Origin: Scytonema hofmannii PCC 7110 | GTDB lineage: Bacteria; Cyanobacteriota; Cyanobacteriia; Cyanobacteriales; Nostocaceae | Length of the DNA: 64,000 bases | Reading direction: 5' to 3' | Assembly: GCF_000346485.2 (NCBI RefSeq) | Contig: NZ_KQ976354.1 | Location: 8,298,039 to 8,362,038, forward strand | Shown: one piece after another, positions 1,497-56,480 of the stretch | Layout: each line of letters begins with the position of its first letter | Position numbering within the stretch: position 1 is the first letter of the stretch | Made by a program: the position numbers and the translations under genes | The notes under the pieces: model-generated | Told to the model about the DNA's origin: nothing | Database searches by the model: none | What the model saw: only the letters and a program-made list of their open reading frames with translations

Positions 1497-3053
1497 ATGG
1501 TCGAAGCAAACCTGGTTCAGCAGGAAAATGCACCTAGTTCGGTACAACCTAAGGTAGGGCATTGGGTATTATTATCAACAATTCTTGCCTCAAGCATGGC
1601 TTTTATTGATGCCTCCGCGCTCAATGTTGCTCTCCCTGCTTTGCAGAATGACTTTGGAGCAAGCGGACCACAACTCCTGTGGATTATCAACGCATACCTA
1701 CTCATGCTCGCCGCGCTGATTTTAGTAGGTGGTTCTCTTGGTGATAAGTTAGGGCGCAAAAAAGTATTTGCGATCGGTATCTACCTATTTATGTTGGCTT
1801 CGTTGGCGTGTGGTTTTGCCTCAAATATTAAATTTCTGATTGCAGCACGAGTTTTGCAAGGTATTGGGGGTGCAATGATGATTCCTGGAAGCCTTGCAAT
1901 CATCACCACCTATTTTGAACCAGAACGTCGTGGAGAAGCGATAGGAACGTGGTCGGCAGCAACTACAATGGTAACAGTTGCGGGACCTGTGCTGGGTGGC
2001 CTGCTGTCAGATGCTGGATTTTGGCGAGGAGTTTTTCTGATCAACTTACCCATAGGAATGACTACGTTAGCAATTCTTTACTTTAAAGTTCCAGAAAGCC
2101 GCAACGAAAAAGCTTCTGTACAAATAGACTATCTTGGTGCAATTCTTGTGACTCTTGGATTGGCGGGTTTGACATATGGTTTCATCTCTCTACACGACCT
2201 TGGATTGAGTAACCCGCGTGTTTATCTGACATTAAGCGGCGGTGCGATCGCTTTAATAGCTTATGTCGTAGTTGAAGCTCGTTCTGCTCACCCAATGATG
2301 CCGTTGCATCTTTTCAAATCGCGTACTTTCAGTGGTACTAACTTGTTAACTCTGTTCTTATATGGTGCATTAAGTGTTGGTACTTTCTTTTTGTGTCTCA
2401 ACTTAGTACAAGCGCAGGGTTACAGTCAGTCAATTGCTGGCTTGGCAGATATGCCATTTGCTCTGCTACTCAGTGGATTGTCTCCTTGGGCTAGTCAGTT
2501 TGCAGATCGTTATGGTCTGCGTTTGCCATTGATTATTGGCCCTTTTTTAGCTGGGCTTGGATTTCTGTTAATGTCATTTGTTGGGCTTACACGGGGTCCT
2601 TCAGAATACTGGACGACATTCTTTCCAGGTATCATGGTTTTTGGGCTAGGCATGGCAATAACAGTTGCACCACTCACAACTGCTGTTATGGGTTCTGTAG
2701 CAAAAAACTATGCGGGAACTGCATCGGGAATCAATAATGCAGTCGCACGCACAGCCGGAGTCTTGACGATCGCGATCGTTGGTTCACTAGCTCTGTCTAA
2801 TTTTTCGCTTTCAGTACAAGCGCACACAACCTGTATTCACCTCTCCCACGCTGCACAAATGCTGTTACAATCCCAGGCAAGACAACTTGGTCAAGTAGCG
2901 CCGATTGTTGGGATTGTACCAGAAAATATGAATGCTGTAGAAATAGCATTCAAACTCGCTTTTGTGGATACTTTCCGGTTAGTTATGATAATTTGTGCTG
3001 GACTAGCCTGGTTAGGCGCAGTAATGGCAGTGTTGTTCATTAGTGACCGGTGA
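1497..3053 (+). CDS. MFS transporter, DHA2 family (EmrB/QacA-type, about 14 TM)
   Basis: This is a proton-driven multidrug-type exporter in the inner membrane. At 518 residues with about 14 hydrophobic segments it matches the DHA2 family. The conserved N-terminal motif D1 (IDASALNVALPAL), the loop motif GGSLGDKLGRKK between TM2 and TM3, and the TM5 motif GPVLGG are visible. It starts at ATG 1497 with only a weak ribosome site (AAGCAG). The TGA stop lies inside the CCAGTGA heptamer tract that follows. No TetR-type regulator is adjacent, so the substrate cannot be inferred. Confidence 0.9.
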   Translation: MVEANLVQQENAPSSVQPKVGHWVLLSTILASSMAFIDASALNVALPALQNDFGASGPQLLWIINAYLLMLAALILVGGSLGDKLGRKKVFAIGIYLFMLASLACGFASNIKFLIAARVLQGIGGAMMIPGSLAIITTYFEPERRGEAIGTWSAATTMVTVAGPVLGGLLSDAGFWRGVFLINLPIGMTTLAILYFKVPESRNEKASVQIDYLGAILVTLGLAGLTYGFISLHDLGLSNPRVYLTLSGGAIALIAYVVVEARSAHPMMPLHLFKSRTFSGTNLLTLFLYGALSVGTFFLCLNLVQAQGYSQSIAGLADMPFALLLSGLSPWASQFADRYGLRLPLIIGPFLAGLGFLLMSFVGLTRGPSEYWTTFFPGIMVFGLGMAITVAPLTTAVMGSVAKNYAGTASGINNAVARTAGVLTIAIVGSLALSNFSLSVQAHTTCIHLSHAAQMLLQSQARQLGQVAPIVGIVPENMNAVEIAFKLAFVDTFRLVMIICAGLAWLGAVMAVLFISDR

Positions 3054-3100
3054 CCAGTAACCAGTGACCAGTGACCAGTGACCAGTGACCAGTGACCAGT
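3042..3100. repeat. CCAGTGA heptanucleotide tandem repeat (STRR)
   Basis: About eight copies of a 7-bp unit (CCAGTGA, with CCGGTGA and CCAGTAA variants). The tract overlaps the stop codon of the MFS gene. Such short tandemly repeated repetitive sequences are known from heterocystous cyanobacteria. The remaining gap up to 3439 has a hairpin and an AT-rich leader but no gene. Confidence 0.9.
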
Positions 3101-15165: not shown

Positions 15166-15210
15166 TGACCAGTTACCAGTGACCAGTTACCAGTGACCAG
15201 TTACCAGTTA
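15166..15210. repeat. STRR tract, CCAGTTA/CCAGTGA heptamers
   Basis: About six 7-bp units that alternate CCAGTTA and CCAGTGA just upstream of the CHASE2 kinase start on the minus strand. Three reversed units (GGTCACT) follow at 15293-15315, near the 3' end of the DUF928 gene, so the two tracts form an inverted pair around an 80-bp spacer. Confidence 0.8.
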
Positions 15211-27572: not shown

Positions 27573-28961
27573 ATGCTGCACGATCCAAATCAAATGATGC
27601 TGTTTCCTAAGTTGCCAGATGAAGCTTTGGAGGAAATGAAGCAGCATGGTACGGAAATAGAACTCCATGTAGATGATGTCCTTTTTAATGAAGGTGATTC
27701 CGACTATTGCTTTCATGTCGTCCTTGAAGGTGAAATCGAAATTGCAAAGCAAGTTGGTAAAGAGACGAGAGTGCTAACTGTTCACCGATCAGGTGAATTC
27801 ATGGGTGAAATTTCCATGCTGACTGGTGCAAGTTCTATTGCTACCGCCCGTGCGATCGCACCCAGTCGAGTTTTGCGAATTGAAATAGATATGTTCAGAC
27901 ATATCCTTGCCGAATGTTCGCCTCTAGCTGACACAATTCTAACAGCTATGGCAGGACGCACTCAAGATGTAGAAGCACAACTCAGGCAACAAGAGAAAAT
28001 GGCAGCATTGGGTAAAATGTCAGCAGGTCTTGCTCATGAATTGAATAATCCAGGGGCTGCGGCGCGACGGGCGGCTTGCCAATTGCGCGAGAACTTTCAA
28101 GATTTACAAACTATATCTCTCAAACTTAATTTACTTTCTAGAGAGCAAATTAAAATTATTACCGATATTCAATATCAAGCCACAGATAACGCTACTCGTG
28201 CAGCTAAACTCGATCCCCTGACTCAAAGCGACAAAGAAGACGAAATCACAGACTGGTTGGAAGACCATAATATCAACAATGCCTGGAAACTTGCCCCCAC
28301 ATTAGTTAATGGCTTTTTAGATGTTGAAAAGCTGGATTTTCTTGCTGATAATATTCCTAGTGAGTGTCTTGGCAGTGTTCTGAAATGGCTGGAAGCGTCA
28401 TTGGCATCTTATGGGCTGATCGATGAAATTGAACAAAGCACAACTCGTATTTCCGATTTGGTTAAAGCCATTAAGGGCTATTCCTACATGGATCGAGCAC
28501 CTTTACAGGAAATAGATTTACACGAGGGAATTGAAAATACTTTACTTATCCTGCACCATCGGCTAAAACATGGAGTCATTGTAAACCGCGATTACGATCG
28601 CACTCTACCAAAAATTTGTGTTTATGCAGGTGAACTGAACCAAGTGTGGACAAATTTGATTGACAATGCCATAGATGCAATGAATGGCAAAGGAGATTTG
28701 ACAATTCGTACTTATAAAGACAGTGATTGTCTGGTGGTAGAAATCATTGATACAGGAGCAGGTATTCCACTAGCAATTCAATCCCGAATTTTTGAACCAT
28801 TTTTTACAACTAAAGGAGTCGGTAAAGGAACTGGATTGGGTTTAGAAATTGCCTATCGTATTGTTGTTAATAGACATCACGGTAACATTAACTTTAAATC
28901 TCAACAGGGTCATACCTGCTTTCAAATTCGTTTACCTTTAACAGTGACCAGTGACCAGTGA
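27573..28961 (+). CDS. Cyclic-nucleotide-binding-domain histidine kinase (paralogue 1)
   Basis: 462 residues, soluble. The N-terminal cNMP-binding-fold domain (about 15-130) has EGDSDYCFHVVLEGEIEI and GEFMGEISMLTGASSIATARA. This is followed by a kinase core with H-box SAGLAHELNNPGAAARRAA, a long family-specific insert of about 150 residues, N-box QVWTNLIDNAIDAM, G1 DTGAGIP and G2 [10 protein letters not shown]. There is no receiver or membrane segment. The next gene is a close paralogue, so the pair arose by tandem duplication. The natural response partner is not fused; the REC-flavoprotein at 23686 is the only REC protein nearby on this strand. The stop codon lies in an STRR tract. Confidence 0.9.
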   Translation: MLHDPNQMMLFPKLPDEALEEMKQHGTEIELHVDDVLFNEGDSDYCFHVVLEGEIEIAKQVGKETRVLTVHRSGEFMGEISMLTGASSIATARAIAPSRVLRIEIDMFRHILAECSPLADTILTAMAGRTQDVEAQLRQQEKMAALGKMSAGLAHELNNPGAAARRAACQLRENFQDLQTISLKLNLLSREQIKIITDIQYQATDNATRAAKLDPLTQSDKEDEITDWLEDHNINNAWKLAPTLVNGFLDVEKLDFLADNIPSECLGSVLKWLEASLASYGLIDEIEQSTTRISDLVKAIKGYSYMDRAPLQEIDLHEGIENTLLILHHRLKHGVIVNRDYDRTLPKICVYAGELNQVWTNLIDNAIDAMNGKGDLTIRTYKDSDCLVVEIIDTGAGIPLAIQSRIFEPFFTTKGVGKGTGLGLEIAYRIVVNRHHGNINFKSQQGHTCFQIRLPLTVTSDQ

Positions 28962-29044
28962 CCAGTGACCAGTAATCAGTGACCAGTAATCAGTGACCAG
29001 TGACCAGTCGCAAATGACAAATGACAAATGACAAATGATAAATC
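28941..29044. repeat. STRR tract between paralogous kinases (CCAGTGA then AAATGAC)
   Basis: About nine CCAGTGA/CCAGTAAT units from the last codons of kinase 1, then four AAATGAC-type units up to the start of kinase 2. The stop TGA of kinase 1 is part of a repeat unit. Confidence 0.9.
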
Positions 29045-35151: not shown

Positions 35152-35991
35152 ATGACAATAACAGAAAACAAAATTCAAGCAGGGTCTTTAGAGTGGTTTT
35201 ATCGTGAATCTTTACCAGTTGGTAGAACAGATTTGCTTCCCGTGTTGTTATTACATGGCCTAGTATCACAAAGTTATAGTTGGCGCAATATAATGCCAGC
35301 TTTAGCAGAACAAGGAACCAAATCCATTGCACCAGATTGGATTGGTTTTGGTTTTTCAGCCAAACCTGAGAAAAGAGATTTTGCTTACACACCTGATACT
35401 TTTATTAAGGCGTTAGAAGCATTTATCAAAGCCATAGAACTTGAACGATTTTCCCTGATTGTGCAAGGGTTTTTAGGTTCTGTTGGACTGCAGTATGCTT
35501 TGCGGCATCCAGAACAAATTGCCAATATAGTTATACTGAATACACCAGTTTCCAGTCAGGCAAAATTGCCTTGGAAAATTCAACAAATAGGTTTGCCTTT
35601 AGCAGGTGAGATGATCGCTCAAGACCCCTTACTTGTCGATCGCACTCTAGAAGGTGGGAGTCGGTATGTCATAAACGATAGCGATTTAGACGTTTACCGC
35701 AAACCTTATTTGAAAAGTTCTGCTTCTGGAAGAAGTCTTTTAGCAACGATTCGCAATTTGCAGTTAAACACAGCAATGGCGGAAATCGAATCAGGTTTTA
35801 AACAATGGCAACAGCCAATTTTAGTTCAATGGGGTACCACTGACCCTTGGTTATCCGTGGACATAGCACAAAATTTTGTGAATACGCTACCCCAAGGTGA
35901 ATTAATTAAACTTAATGGCGGTGGACACTATCCACAAGAACACCATTCAGAACCTATTCTTCAAGACCTTTTACCTTTTGTGCGTGTTTGA
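35152..35991 (+). CDS. Alpha/beta hydrolase
   Basis: 279 residues. Alpha/beta hydrolase fold with oxyanion motif LLHGLVSQSYSWRNI, DWIGFGFSAKP, the nucleophile-elbow position VQGFLGSVGLQYAL, in which the usual G-x-S/D-x-G reads QGFLGS, and the C-terminal acid and histidine region WGTTDPWLSV and NGGGHYPQEHHSE. It resembles haloalkane-dehalogenase-like proteins, but the nucleophile (normally Ser or Asp) reads Phe or Leu, so catalysis is uncertain. An upstream ATG at 35128 falls in a TTTGCGCC repeat, so 35152 is chosen. Its stop opens an STRR tract. Confidence 0.8.
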   Translation: MTITENKIQAGSLEWFYRESLPVGRTDLLPVLLLHGLVSQSYSWRNIMPALAEQGTKSIAPDWIGFGFSAKPEKRDFAYTPDTFIKALEAFIKAIELERFSLIVQGFLGSVGLQYALRHPEQIANIVILNTPVSSQAKLPWKIQQIGLPLAGEMIAQDPLLVDRTLEGGSRYVINDSDLDVYRKPYLKSSASGRSLLATIRNLQLNTAMAEIESGFKQWQQPILVQWGTTDPWLSVDIAQNFVNTLPQGELIKLNGGGHYPQEHHSEPILQDLLPFVRV

Positions 35992-36119
35992 CCAGTGACC
36001 AGTGACCAGTGACCAGTGACCAGTGACCAGTGACCAGTGACCAGTGACCAGTGACCAGTGACCAGTGGTCAATGACAAAGGACAAATGACAAAGGACAAA
36101 TGATAAATGACAAATTCAC
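35989..36119. repeat. STRR tract, about ten CCAGTGA units then AAATGAC units
   Basis: The longest uniform tract: ten consecutive CCAGTGA heptamers from the hydrolase stop codon, followed by a run of ACAAATG/ACAAAGG heptamers. After it comes an AGGATTGCTATA sequence at about 36132 and the hemJ leader. Confidence 0.92.
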
Positions 36120-51695: not shown

Positions 51696-52847
51696 ATGAC
51701 GAGTACAGACACAAATATCACTCAGAACACTAGGTTAGTAGAGATAGGCTGGAAAGACGAATTAATCGAAAGTTTAAAGTTATCTAACCAAGCAGAAGAC
51801 TGGTTGCCTTTATCACCAGAAGAACGCGATCGCGTGACTGAGGCAAAGCAGAACTTTCCCATGATGGTTCCCCAAGGTTATGCAGATCTCATCAATTGGC
51901 AAAACCCGGACGATCCCCTGCGGTTGCTGCTGTTACCTTCGGAAGGTGAGAAGGATGAATCTGGAAACTTTGATACCAGTGGTGAAGAACTTTCCACAAT
52001 TATACAGGGTTTGCAGCACAAATACGACCAAACAGCAGTGTTAATTGTGACTCAAGCTTGTGCCGGACATTGCCGCTACTGTTTTCGTCGGCGGCTGATG
52101 AGTCGTGATGTATTGACACAAGAGACAATAGAGGATTTACAAGAAGCACTGGCTTATATTGCCCAACACCCAGAAATAGACAACGTGCTTCTTTCTGGTG
52201 GCGATCCTATGATTTCCAGCACTCGCCGCCTAGCCAATCTTTTAAGTGCGATCGCACAAATTCCCCATATTTGGCAAATTCGCATCAGTACCAAACTCCC
52301 TGCTTTCTTACCCAGTCGTTTCACCACTGATCCAGAACTATTAGACGTTCTGCATCAATATAAATCTCGATTTCAAATCATCATTCAATGCCATTTTGAC
52401 CATCCCCGCGAAATCTCCACAGCAACAATTTGCGCCTTAGAAAACCTGCAAAAAGCTGGTTGTTTGCTAACTTCTCAAATCGCTTTGATGAAAGGTATTA
52501 ACGACTCTCCAGATACTTTAACTGAACTCTTCAAAAAACTCCATCGTTATAGCGTTATTCCGCAATATATCTTTCACCCACGTCCCGTTAAGCATGCAAC
52601 TCACTTTCAACTGCCAATTGTAGAAGGAATGCAGTTAATAGAAACAGTTCGTCAACAGTGCAGTGGACCCGTCAAACGCTTTCGCTATATCCTAACTCAT
52701 GAAGACGGCAAACTAGAACTTGTAGGTATTCTTCCCGGTTCACCCATACAGTTAGTAGCCAAATGGCAGCAGGTGCGGCGAGGATTAGATAACTCTGGAG
52801 TGATACTATTGCCAGTTGACGAGCAAACTTGTTGGCTTAATCAGTGA
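51696..52847 (+). CDS. KamA family radical SAM protein (lysine 2,3-aminomutase-like)
   Basis: 383 residues. Radical SAM Cys motif CxxxCxxC reads CAGHCRYCFRR, followed by VLLSGGDPMISS and ISTKLPAFLPSRFT as in lysine 2,3-aminomutases and EpmB. Family enzymes use a 4Fe-4S cluster, SAM and PLP to move an amino group to the beta position. The PLP-lysine and substrate specificity cannot be settled here. The KamA gene is followed by an ATP-grasp gene across an STRR tract. The stop lies in the repeat tract. Confidence 0.88.
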   Translation: MTSTDTNITQNTRLVEIGWKDELIESLKLSNQAEDWLPLSPEERDRVTEAKQNFPMMVPQGYADLINWQNPDDPLRLLLLPSEGEKDESGNFDTSGEELSTIIQGLQHKYDQTAVLIVTQACAGHCRYCFRRRLMSRDVLTQETIEDLQEALAYIAQHPEIDNVLLSGGDPMISSTRRLANLLSAIAQIPHIWQIRISTKLPAFLPSRFTTDPELLDVLHQYKSRFQIIIQCHFDHPREISTATICALENLQKAGCLLTSQIALMKGINDSPDTLTELFKKLHRYSVIPQYIFHPRPVKHATHFQLPIVEGMQLIETVRQQCSGPVKRFRYILTHEDGKLELVGILPGSPIQLVAKWQQVRRGLDNSGVILLPVDEQTCWLNQ

Positions 52848-52978
52848 CCAGTGACCAGTGACCAGTGACCAGTGACCAGTGACCAGTGACTAGTGACCAG
52901 TGACCAGTGACCAGTGACCAGTGACCAATAACAAATGACCAGTGACCAGTGACCAATAACAAATGACAAATGACATAG
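52841..52978. repeat. STRR tract, about fifteen CCAGTGA units plus AAATGAC units
   Basis: The CCAGTGA heptamers begin at the KamA stop and pass to CCAATAA/CAAATGA units that run into the first codons of the ATP-grasp gene. This is the longest tract in the window and fills the whole intergenic space. Confidence 0.93.
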
Positions 52979-53952
52979 GATTATTATTTGAGCTTGAGGC
53001 TGACATCATGTCAGACTTAACAGCAAAAGAACAAACGCACTATCACTGGCGAGAACCAGAAGAAGTGGAAGCCGTCGCAGAAAGTTTAACAGCTTTAGGT
53101 TACACAGTAGATAAAATTGGCGCTTTAAATAATTTGTTAGAAAGGTGGCGTTTTCATCAACTCCCAGATTTTGTTTGGAACCTTTCAGTCAGAACTCTTT
53201 CCCGCAATCGTACCGCTCTAGCACCCGCAATTTTAGAGCAATTAAATATTCCTTATACTGGTGGTGACGCTACAGTCAAAAGTCTGACTTTAAATAAAGA
53301 TCTCCTCAAACCCGTGTTACAGTGGCGTGGAATTTCGACACCTTCTTGGTATCGATATGAAACAGGAGAGGATATTCAATCTTTACCTCCTTGGTCAAGC
53401 TCAATTTTGAAACCTAGTTGTGAAGGTTACTCGTTAGGATTGCGAAGATTTGATAACCAAGAGGGATTGGCTGTACTCCGTCAACAAGTGGAGGAAATAG
53501 GTAAGTTATTTCATGTACCAGTACTGTGTGAAGAATTTATTGCAGGTCGTGAGATTACAGTGGGTATTGTTGGCAATTCTTCACCATTGTTAATCGGTGC
53601 AGTAGAAACAGTCAACGCCATGGGTGAATCACTGAATGAGCAAGTTTTAGATTTGTCAGCTAAGCGTCAGGGAAAGTTTCAGAAAATTGGAGTCGATCTT
53701 GATGATTCAAAGCTACAGGGGTTGCGTGATGTCACCTTGGAATTGATGAAGTTTTTTAGACCGCTAGATTATGCAACTTTTGATTTTCGTATAGCACTAG
53801 ATGGACGGGCGTATCTATTAGATATCAATGCAGACGCTACTTTGCATCCACAGCGTTCGTTTGCTCAAATTGCTCGTGCGGCTGGTCTATCTTATCAACA
53901 ATTGATCGAGGTGATTTTGAGGACTTCTTTGGAAAGATGGGAAAAGGGTTGA
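52963..53952 (+). CDS. ATP-grasp protein related to D-alanine--D-alanine ligase
   Basis: 329 residues. ATP-grasp carboxylate-amine ligase fold: LNIPYTGGDATVKSLTLNKDLLK, SSILKPSCEGYSLGLRRF (glycine-rich loop region), VLCEEFIAGREITVGIVG, and the metal-binding end YLLDINADATLHPQRSF. It is not a housekeeping Ddl by context; it is paired with KamA. The start at 52963 is supported by the family N-terminus IGLLFELEAD, although that ATG lies in a heptamer repeat. A plausible role is to activate or ligate a beta-amino acid; inference. Confidence 0.85.
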   Translation: MTNDIGLLFELEADIMSDLTAKEQTHYHWREPEEVEAVAESLTALGYTVDKIGALNNLLERWRFHQLPDFVWNLSVRTLSRNRTALAPAILEQLNIPYTGGDATVKSLTLNKDLLKPVLQWRGISTPSWYRYETGEDIQSLPPWSSSILKPSCEGYSLGLRRFDNQEGLAVLRQQVEEIGKLFHVPVLCEEFIAGREITVGIVGNSSPLLIGAVETVNAMGESLNEQVLDLSAKRQGKFQKIGVDLDDSKLQGLRDVTLELMKFFRPLDYATFDFRIALDGRAYLLDINADATLHPQRSFAQIARAAGLSYQQLIEVILRTSLERWEKG

Positions 53953-54059
53953 CTTGGGAATTGCAAGTACATAAGTTAATTTGATTTGCACCTATTGAGA
54001 AGTAACTGGTATCTTTCCAATGTACCAGCCTATTTCCAGAAAACACTTCGTTGAAAAAA

Positions 54060-54866
54060 ATGAAATTCATCAAATTGCTACTGGTTAGCATTTCTCTCAT
54101 ATTTTTTGTATGGATGAGTCCAGTACAAGCCAGCCCCTTGGCTCAAGTACCAACTCCTCCACCTGAAGTTCAAGAAAGTGAAACATCATCGGCGGCTTTA
54201 ATTCAGGAACTCGCTCAAGAGTATAAGCCCAGTCGAGACTTGAACTACGATCGGTCAAGAGACCAGATGTTTGGTATTATTGATAATCGAGACGGAATTG
54301 TGACAGACATTTATGCTGGTTTCTCAATTCGTTTAACAGGCGACGGCGATACCAGCCAGGAAGCTGACAGGCTGGGACAGAATACCGAACACGTTTGGCC
54401 TCAAAGTAAAGGGGCTGATAAGGGTAATGCCCGCAGTGACCTTCACCATTTGTTTCCCTCGCGAAAAGATGTGAATAGCGATCGCGGTAACAAACCTTTC
54501 AGTGAAATTGAGGATCGAAGTACTGAGAAGTGGTATCGAGATGATGTTCGTTTAAGGACGATTCCTAATAGTGAAATTGATGAATTTAGCGAATCAGCAT
54601 TTTCTAGATTTGAACCTAGAGAAGAGGTGAAAGGAAATATTGCTAGAGCAATGTTTTACTTCAATACTATATATAGCGATCGCGCTAACGCAGTAGACCC
54701 AAACTACTTTGAAAGACAGCGTCAAACCCTGTGTCAATGGAACCAGCAAGATCCTCCTGACACTACTGAAATTGAACGCAGTCGTGCGATCGCTGAATTT
54801 CAAGGAAATGAAAATCCTTTCGTGCTAGATGCTACATTAGCACAAAAGACCTACTGTAATTCTTAA
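54060..54866 (+). CDS. Secreted endonuclease I family nuclease
   Basis: 268 residues. Signal peptide (FIKLLLVSISLIFFVWMSPVQA), then an EndA-like His-Me finger nuclease domain with NTEHVWPQSKGADKGNARSDLHHLFPSRKDVNSDRGNKPF, which holds the catalytic His and metal-binding Asn. A predicted periplasmic or extracellular non-specific nuclease. ATG 54060 is chosen; TTG 54051 is in frame but less likely. The next gene, murJ, starts at the very next base after the stop. Confidence 0.9.
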   Translation: MKFIKLLLVSISLIFFVWMSPVQASPLAQVPTPPPEVQESETSSAALIQELAQEYKPSRDLNYDRSRDQMFGIIDNRDGIVTDIYAGFSIRLTGDGDTSQEADRLGQNTEHVWPQSKGADKGNARSDLHHLFPSRKDVNSDRGNKPFSEIEDRSTEKWYRDDVRLRTIPNSEIDEFSESAFSRFEPREEVKGNIARAMFYFNTIYSDRANAVDPNYFERQRQTLCQWNQQDPPDTTEIERSRAIAEFQGNENPFVLDATLAQKTYCNS

Positions 54867-56480
54867 ATGAAGCGCTCACTAGCTGGAATTGCGGGAATTG
54901 TTGCGATCGCCACTCTCATCAGCAAACTCTTTGGGTTAGTGCGATCGGCTTGTGTTGCAGCAGTTTTTGGAGTTGGTCCGGTTGCTGATGCATACAATTA
55001 CGCCTATATTATCCCCGGCTTTTTGTTAGTTTTGCTTGGTGGTATTAATGGTCCAGTGCATAGTACTCTGGTGAGCGTTTTAGCAAAGCGAGAAAAATCA
55101 ACAGCTGCTCCTTTGGTAGAAACAATCACCACTCTTACTGGCTGCATCTTACTTTTGGTCACTATTAGTTTGATTGTTTGTGCAGATTTTTTCACTCATT
55201 TAATAGCCCCTGGTTTGGAACCACAAGTTAGAACCCTAGCTGCACAACAATTGCAGATAATGGCTCCCATCGCTATGTTATCGGGGTTTATCGGTATTGG
55301 CTTTGGGACTCTAAATGCAGCACAACATTACTGGCTTCCTTCCATTAGCCCAATGCTATCTAGTCTAACAGTCATCATTGGCTTGGGTGTTTTCGTCCTA
55401 CAACAGGGAACCCCAGCCAATACATCTGACTACCCCCTACTCCCTACTCCCCACTCCCCACTCCCTATTTTCCAAGGAGGCTTGGTATTAGCTGGTGGAA
55501 CTCTTGCAGGTGCTATTTTGCAATGGGTAGTTCAATTGATAGTGCAGTGGCGGGAGGGTATGGGGAGACTACGCCTGCGCTTTGACTTTTATTCTCCAGG
55601 GGTGAAAGAGGCGATCGCAGTCATGGCTCCTGCTATTTTATCTTCCAGCATGACCCAAATTAACATTTACGTTGACTTATTCTTCGCTTCTTATATTCCT
55701 CATGCGGCGGCGGCATTAAATTATGCTGGGCTACTTGCTCAAACGCCCAAAGGTATTCTTACGAGTGCCTTATTAATACCATTCATAACAGTATTTTCCC
55801 AATTAACAAAGCCAGAAGATTGGTTTGCATTAAAGCTGCGGATTCGTCAAAGCATCATTATTACAGCTCTTACTATGTTACCCTTGGGAGCTTTGATGAT
55901 AACTTTAGCTGTGCCAATTGTAAGAATAGTGTACGAGCGCCAAGCATTTGACTCCCATGCATCCAAACTTGTGGCAACTCTTTTCATGGCTTATGGTTTA
56001 GGCGCTTTCACCAGTGTTCTTGTCAGCGTATTAGTGCGGGTATTCTATGCTTTGGAAGATGGGCAAACACCTTTTCGCATAACTTTAATAAATATTTCAC
56101 TGAATATAGTACTTGATTATTTTCTAGTAAAAGCCTTTGGCGCACCCGGTTTAGTTCTTGCTTCTATGGGAGTGAATTTAACAGCAACTATCATGTTGTT
56201 ATGGTGCTTGCATCGCCGACTCAACGGTTTAGCTTTGCGAGAATGGAGTCTACCCATACTGGGTTTAATTGGCATAAGTGGAATAACAGGGCTTGCTTGT
56301 TGGCTCACAAGTTGGGGTTTTGAAGTTCTTTGGGGTAGCGAAGGAATACTGAGACAGTTGTTACAATTAAGTCTTGCTAGTAGTATCGGATTAGGAGTTT
56401 TTGCAGCTTTAGTGAGTATCATGAAACTGCCAGAGGTTGAGTTGTTGGTGAATCGCTTGAGAAAGAAACGACTGGAATAG
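54867..56480 (+). CDS. murJ: Lipid II flippase MurJ (MviN)
   Basis: 537 residues with about 14 TM helices. Peptidoglycan precursor flippase: VAIATLISKLFGLVRSACVAAVFGVGPVADAYNYAYIIPGFLLVLLGG start, and the internal FYALEDGQTPFRITLINISLNIVLDYFLV are typical. An odd stretch DYPLLPTPHSPLPIFQ at about residues 188-203 comes from the repeat tract at 55430-55471 and is not family-like. It starts at the base after the endonuclease stop, so cotranscribed. Confidence 0.93.
   Translation: MKRSLAGIAGIVAIATLISKLFGLVRSACVAAVFGVGPVADAYNYAYIIPGFLLVLLGGINGPVHSTLVSVLAKREKSTAAPLVETITTLTGCILLLVTISLIVCADFFTHLIAPGLEPQVRTLAAQQLQIMAPIAMLSGFIGIGFGTLNAAQHYWLPSISPMLSSLTVIIGLGVFVLQQGTPANTSDYPLLPTPHSPLPIFQGGLVLAGGTLAGAILQWVVQLIVQWREGMGRLRLRFDFYSPGVKEAIAVMAPAILSSSMTQINIYVDLFFASYIPHAAAALNYAGLLAQTPKGILTSALLIPFITVFSQLTKPEDWFALKLRIRQSIIITALTMLPLGALMITLAVPIVRIVYERQAFDSHASKLVATLFMAYGLGAFTSVLVSVLVRVFYALEDGQTPFRITLINISLNIVLDYFLVKAFGAPGLVLASMGVNLTATIMLLWCLHRRLNGLALREWSLPILGLIGISGITGLACWLTSWGFEVLWGSEGILRQLLQLSLASSIGLGVFAALVSIMKLPEVELLVNRLRKKRLE
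55430..55471 (+). repeat. CCCTACTC/CCCCACTC repeat inside murJ
   Basis: A short run of ACTCCCTACTCCCCACTCCC-type units of the kind usually intergenic (compare about 59760 and 61065) is translated in frame in murJ, adding a Pro/Ser-rich loop between TM segments. Confidence 0.7.

Follow-up and report, generated by a model that had tools for sequence, protein, structure and literature searches.

A radical-SAM/ATP-grasp gene pair in Scytonema hofmannii PCC 7110 as the core of a five-gene locus with a proposed role in envelope-precursor synthesis

The paired genes for a KamA-like radical-SAM enzyme and an ATP-grasp ligase of the D-Ala-D-Ala ligase (Ddl) fold in S. hofmannii PCC 7110 form the core of a five-gene locus whose most likely product is a modified, probably lipid-linked, peptidoglycan-type envelope precursor. 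The window, i.e. the whole stretch of 64,000 nucleotides analyzed here, carries all five genes (Table 1). A rough probability of 0.45 goes to a pathway dedicated to the envelope, in which an unusual and probably acidic building block is formed and ligated and MurJ2, an additional homologue of lipid II flippases, flips the lipid-linked product. This is the best single account because the ligase and MurJ2 reading frames overlap in six genomes, the MurJ paralogue is dedicated to the locus and a VanW protein belongs to it. The first-pass annotation had described the two open reading frames, in the same direction, as an aminomutase-like and a D-Ala-D-Ala-ligase-like gene with only an STRR tract between them, all of which is confirmed. 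It missed MurJ2, VanW and the Ldh_2-family dehydrogenase as members of the unit, and also a second KamA/ligase pair in the genome; the second MurJ and VanW point to the envelope, a setting absent from that annotation.

Table 1. Positions of the locus features within the window
Feature	Position	Strand	Basis
KamA-like radical-SAM enzyme, 383 aa	51696-52847	+	ORF; TIGR00238 and 2a5h matches
STRR heptamer array, unit CAGTGAC and variants	52842-52975	.	Genome-wide repeat type
Ddl-fold ATP-grasp ligase, 329 aa	52963-53952	+	ORF; Dala_Dala_lig_C match
MurJ2, additional homologue of lipid II flippases, 537 aa, in a clade specific to the cluster	54867-56480	+	
Ldh_2-family NAD(P)H-dependent dehydrogenase, 352 aa	61173-62231	-	
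VanW-domain protein, 274 aa	62176-63000	-	PF04294, 119.9 bits

The KamA stop codon and the ligase ATG are separated by 115 bases, and by 16 to 166 bases in seven other genomes measured. The heptamer array, for which we take STRR to be the name, spans the KamA stop codon and the initial codons of the ligase; it belongs to a genome-wide repeat type and is not a functional element of the locus. Further arrays of related units lie at 3042-3100, 15166-15210, 28942-29043 and 35989-36115 of the window.

The KamA-like protein passes the NCBIfam KamA subfamily model TIGR00238 (221.8 bits, cut-off 199.2) and matches the lysine 2,3-aminomutase (LAM) 2a5h of C. subterminale (E 3.9e-47), and it falls below every narrower NCBIfam aminomutase model tested: lysine 2,3-aminomutase (TIGR03820, 189.4 bits against a cut-off of 525.4), glutamate and arginine 2,3-aminomutases (TIGR04368, 206.5 against 650; TIGR04468, 197.7 against 600) and EpmB (TIGR03821, 232.3 against 369.3), the last being the top single model. 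The predicted structure used for the fold search (pLDDT 66.9) shares the fold of 2a5h (Z 24.7 across 307 residues at 27% identity, against 12.1 for the next family), which is the lone aminomutase among the matches listed, a result that excludes nothing. The two proteins have in common the CxxxCxxC radical-SAM motif (C122, C126 and C129, unvarying in 11/11 KamA orthologues), LAM Arg134 (here Arg131) and probably the PLP lysine. They differ at LAM Asp293, presumably the binder of the lysine epsilon-amino group, which is replaced by Arg296 here and by Arg in all 11 orthologues, at Arg116 (here Thr113) and in the DAPGGGGK stretch, which gives way to an SHxxGK-like stretch; the segment H294-P-R-P-V-K-H300 is unvarying throughout the same 11 proteins. 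These alignments comprised 11 KamA and 10 ligase orthologues, with G292, G456, G454, G352 and G353 left out. Judged by its residues and the model cut-offs, the enzyme is not a lysine aminomutase. According to a published study, mutation of Asp331, which is equated here with LAM Asp330, helped to give a Bacillus enzyme alanine 2,3-aminomutase activity (PMC9850924); changes in this pocket can therefore alter the substrate.

The PLP-binding residue, which we take to be Lys337 in LAM, was initially read as lost, because the hhalign alignment ended at residue 325, short of its place, and because the structure model has a beta hairpin at the C-terminus. A sliding test was split, favoring the PLP register in L047 (19.1; shuffles 4.0, sd 5.0) and the hairpin register in L048 (10.8 vs 0.8), with most other sequences within the shuffles. 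Once proteins from rhizobia and Paenibacillus were added, GK[IL]E[IL] aligned to GK[IV]P[IL]; the loss was set aside after this wider alignment, by which the lysine is probably retained, as Lys339. The added proteins, encoded on rhizobial symbiosis plasmids and in Paenibacillus, are 38% identical to the KamA-like protein and carry RPV at the Asp293 place and GK[IL]E[IL] near the C-terminus, with a common [TS]GKIE stretch, and these features place the window's KamA in a wider subfamily. The neighbors of those genes differ; of the stretches read, only that of B. barranii has a ligase nearby.

The ligase passes Pfam Dala_Dala_lig_C (57.3 bits, cut-off 24) and fails the NCBIfam D-Ala-D-Ala ligase subfamily model (94.8 against 243). 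Its structure model (pLDDT 80.0, pTM 0.81) is closest to Ddl and D-Ala:D-Lac ligases (Z 24-27), the D-Ala:D-Lac ligase 1ehi being the top row (Z 27.4), tied within 1 with Ddl rows. The whole fold and the ATP-binding residues are common to E. coli DdlB, with Lys97, Lys144, Asp257 and Asn272 retained and Glu270 replaced by Asp. The residues that we take to form the DdlB D-Ala pocket (Ser150, Tyr216, Arg255, Gly276 and Ser281) are, by contrast, all replaced in 10/10 ligase orthologues, Arg255 by Thr in every one and Tyr216 by Lys or Arg, depending on the alignment. They are retained in the genome's own housekeeping Ddl and in 4/4 ligases of the second pair, and Arg255 also in the Bradyrhizobium, NGR234 and Thioflavicoccus ligases. 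On these residue and cut-off tests, the protein is not a D-Ala-D-Ala ligase. A further Ddl-like ATP-grasp gene of this genome (L035; G000:C1:6899269-6899814) has the same FDFR stretch as the window's ligase and is without Arg255. Basic residues have been gained in both members of the pair, which suggests that their substrate may be anionic. The first-pass annotation had proposed that a beta-amino acid is made and then ligated to an amine or peptide. What survives is a conserved radical-SAM/ATP-grasp pairing, with a Ddl-fold ligase, in an unassigned route; the beta-amino acid product is hypothetical, with the CxxxCxxC motif and probable PLP lysine retained and Asp293 absent, and the substrate residues of a D-Ala-D-Ala ligase are absent.

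Conservation of the pair in other cyanobacteria, the check that had been proposed for it, is borne out within the family. An intact KamA orthologue occurs in 14 of the 217 family genomes searched (E at most 2.7e-187), and all 14 have a full downstream ligase on the same strand; a broken KamA orthologue was found in G301. Insertions have placed the ligase ~2.1 kb from KamA in L021 and ~9.4 kb away in G456, where the interruption (L123:10448-19999 and L127:618-7815) contains a partial second ligase 5' end and has the look of an insertion whose edge was duplicated. A scan of named genomes gave 11 KamA loci, nine of them (L015-L023) with an intact same-strand downstream ligase; Calothrix sp. PCC 7103 is among the named carriers, and L025 holds both genes as fragments only. 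A KamA orthologue of 55% identity in a Phycisphaeraceae MAG (L024:9974-11176) has no ligase, MurJ2, VanW or Ldh_2 nearby, and may reflect transfer, mis-binning or another use. In a sample of 292 genomes of the phylum, KamA matches at 1e-30 were found in 12, of which only this genome has the window's type, the other 11 being more distant proteins, and the ligase was found at 1e-30 in this genome only. No relative was found in the viral contigs scanned with the KamA and ligase alignments, and nothing on the pairing or the gene cluster was found in the open-licence papers searched. The pairing goes beyond chance, since it is conserved across genera and purifying selection acts on both genes, judged against the congener G292 (dN/dS 0.186 for KamA, 0.360 for the ligase); a chance neighborhood was rejected. 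The corresponding values are 0.194 for MurJ2, 0.148 for Ldh_2 and 0.297 for VanW.

An all-versus-all comparison of the flanks gave three more common families, MurJ, Ldh_2 and VanW. MurJ2 lies at full length 3' of the ligase in 13/14 carriers, the copy of G292, counted among these, having one in-frame stop; in C. elsteri (L020) an internal deletion has removed the middle of the gene. The ligase stop overlaps the MurJ2 start by 4 bases in L017, L018, L019 and L125, and the overlap is 20 bases in L015 and L016; the pair and MurJ2 form one operon. A gene of the endonuclease I family (54051-54866, + strand) lies between ligase and MurJ2 in the window; it also occurs 3' of the ligase in G292 and is not present in the Calothrix loci. 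VanW and Ldh_2 are found within the retrieved stretch in 12 of the 14 carriers, on a side of the KamA operon that differs between genomes, and are missing from L020 (a contig of 10.5 kb) and L021 (21 kb looked at). Plain species synteny was rejected, as the linkage persists on either side. In L023, named Lyngbya confervoides BDU141951, KamA, ligase, VanW and Ldh_2 are present and the contig stops after the ligase. Of 25 relatives compared, only the pair-bearing genomes, G000 (this genome) and G292, have a second full-length MurJ, VanW and an intact Ldh_2, and decayed loci retain KamA, ligase and MurJ2 pieces in order (G301) or MurJ2 and Ldh_2 pieces (G296). The five genes thus occur, remain linked and decay jointly.

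MurJ2 exceeds the MurJ equivalog cut-off (TIGR01695, 405.4 against 235.55). The nine cluster MurJs in the tree group in a single clade (support 100/99), apart from 25 housekeeping MurJs, and MurJ2 is therefore a paralogue and not the sole flippase of the cell; same-gene copies (L053, L031, L030, L087), decayed (L080, L086) and deleted (L020) genes and fragments of less than 450 aa (L014, L036) were omitted from the tree. At the 12 E. coli MurJ sites compared, cluster and housekeeping proteins match, with scattered within-group differences. In the VanW protein, Cys124 and His147 are unvarying in 13/13 sequences and would be the catalytic residues; no hydrophobic 19-residue window above 1.6, and hence no visible signal or membrane segment, was seen. 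VanW proteins include LD-transpeptidases, for which part of one report names a Cys-His-small triad without positions, and some are without that activity (PMC12729407).

Similar pairings are found elsewhere. The second pair of this genome (G000:C1:891028-893304; L043:9947-12313) comprises KamA2 (C1:891028), of the canonical lysine type with Asp293 and DAPGGGGK retained, and a ligase (C1:892336) with the Ddl residues retained; it is widespread in the family. A ligase, whole or partial, lies downstream at 14/18 KamA2 loci (wide flanks 4/4, short flanks 10/14), and Asp occupies the Leu282 place in 8/8 of its ligases where the pattern reached the site, a match at the wrong place in L104 not being counted. 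Acidic residues in both enzymes of the second pair, and basic residues in both of the first, suggest that the members of each pair are matched. A MATE exporter adjoins the second pair in L044 and L046, and in L043 by similarity to the L044 gene. Between KamA2 and the ligase lies a SET-domain gene in L044 and L045, and in L046 a gene which we take from its sequence to be amidinotransferase-like (no Pfam match at 0.01).

A plasmid search gave 96 records with KamA relatives and 21 with ligase relatives. In B. barranii (Bradyrhizobium; L129:8665-13430), a KamA of the window's subfamily is part of a string with a gamma-glutamyltransferase, a 7TM protein and an ATP-grasp gene, while in Thioflavicoccus mobilis (L133:3557-9038) genes for a diaminobutyrate transaminase, SbnA, an ornithine cyclodeaminase-like protein and a Ddl-like ligase are accompanied by a convergent canonical-type KamA. 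No partner gene was seen in the flanks of the R. gallicum R602 KamA, or in those of the NGR234, R. leguminosarum Norway and R. gallicum IE4872 ligases, for all of which the gene table is incomplete. The 50 most abundant proteins listed for pea bacteroids of R. leguminosarum UPM791 include both a "lysine 2,3-aminomutase" (RLV_1884) and a "D-alanine--D-alanine ligase" (RLV_1846), neither of which was detected in vegetative cells (PMC7950203); the tie to the present pair, made by annotation, is a lead.

In the preferred envelope pathway, the KamA-like enzyme would perform a PLP-assisted 1,2-amino shift on an amino acid whose acidic side chain would meet Arg296, Lys299 and His300, around the LAM Asp293 place. 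Ldh_2 would supply or reduce a partner acid, and the ATP-grasp enzyme would activate one carboxylate as an acyl phosphate and join both acids. The product would then pass to a stem peptide or lipid carrier and be flipped by MurJ2, and VanW would act on it through Cys/His thiol chemistry. A more specific version, in which glutamate or a diaminopimelate-like amino acid is rearranged and ligated into a non-standard stem peptide, flipped by the dedicated MurJ and processed by a VanW thiol enzyme, so that some Calothrix-like cyanobacteria possess a second, beta-amino-acid-bearing peptidoglycan, is unlikely as a whole. Several observations weigh against the envelope, of which the most damaging concern VanW export and the broken MurJ2 of two carriers. 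A VanW without a visible signal or membrane segment is odd for a periplasmic transpeptidase; L021 has neither VanW nor Ldh_2 in 21 kb; the stop in MurJ2 of G292 and the deletion in C. elsteri imply that those carriers may do without MurJ2; and the second pair and the Bradyrhizobium and Thioflavicoccus loci show no wall genes and look like small-molecule pathways.

The last point leads to the main rival, which is nearest to the first-pass annotation, a possible yet doubtful reading in which an exported peptide-like metabolite would be formed from a KamA-derived beta-amino acid, extended with a second acid by the ligase, tailored by Ldh_2 and exported by the MurJ homologue acting as a MOP-superfamily exporter and not on lipid II. 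It draws on the MATE exporter, of the same superfamily as MurJ, beside the second pair, on the gamma-glutamyltransferase of the Bradyrhizobium string and on the diaminobutyrate/diaminopropionate genes of Thioflavicoccus. A precedent is MysD, described in part of one paper as a cyanobacterial Ddl homologue with another substrate, serving mycosporine-like amino acids (PMC11983340); it works with mysABC genes, none of which was seen beside the window's ligase. MurJ2, however, lies well over the equivalog cut-off without a clear difference from housekeeping MurJ, and a wall role suits VanW better.

Clusters of vanB-type glycopeptide resistance likewise combine a Ddl-fold ligase, a dehydrogenase and an adjoining VanW protein, and it is conceivable, but quite unlikely, that the locus is a related system: Ldh_2 would form a 2-hydroxy acid, the ligase would make a depsipeptide or altered dipeptide ending the stem, with VanW as accessory and the KamA-like enzyme supplying the other partner, as protection against an antibiotic or wall enzyme. 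Loss of Tyr216 in DdlB favors ester formation, and its equivalent is lost here; 1ehi also heads the structural rows, in a near tie with Ddl. Yet Arg255, Gly276 and Ser281, which true D-Ala:D-Lac ligases retain, are lost as well, Ldh_2 is to our knowledge not the family of VanH, and the locus adds a radical-SAM enzyme and MurJ. Very improbable is an EpmB-type enzyme making (R)-beta-lysine for EF-P beside an unrelated ligase, one of the two outcomes that had been named as refuting the proposed route, neither of which occurred. EpmB is indeed the best single model, but its score is far below the cut-off, and no EpmA above the TIGR00462 cut-off was found in the genome (the top score, 240.2 against 286.9, belongs to a 517-residue frame), and on these two grounds the identity was rejected. 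Moreover, Asp293 is replaced, the ligase neighbor is conserved and the KamA orthologue is missing from most family genomes.

Radical aminomutases serve catabolism, osmolyte and antibiotic synthesis and EF-P modification. If true, the tie of KamA to a MurJ/VanW locus would extend radical chemistry to the building of the envelope. The pairing of KamA with Ddl-like ligases recurs, in the second pair of this genome and on the Bradyrhizobium and Thioflavicoccus plasmids, so that solving one case would help in reading the others, and Calothrix sp. PCC 7103 is one of the named carriers that open the locus to muropeptide analysis. In Calothrix-like cyanobacteria, a radical enzyme and a ligase occur together with a spare flippase and another two genes, a combination that points to a pathway, not described so far, for an unusual building block, probably destined for the envelope.
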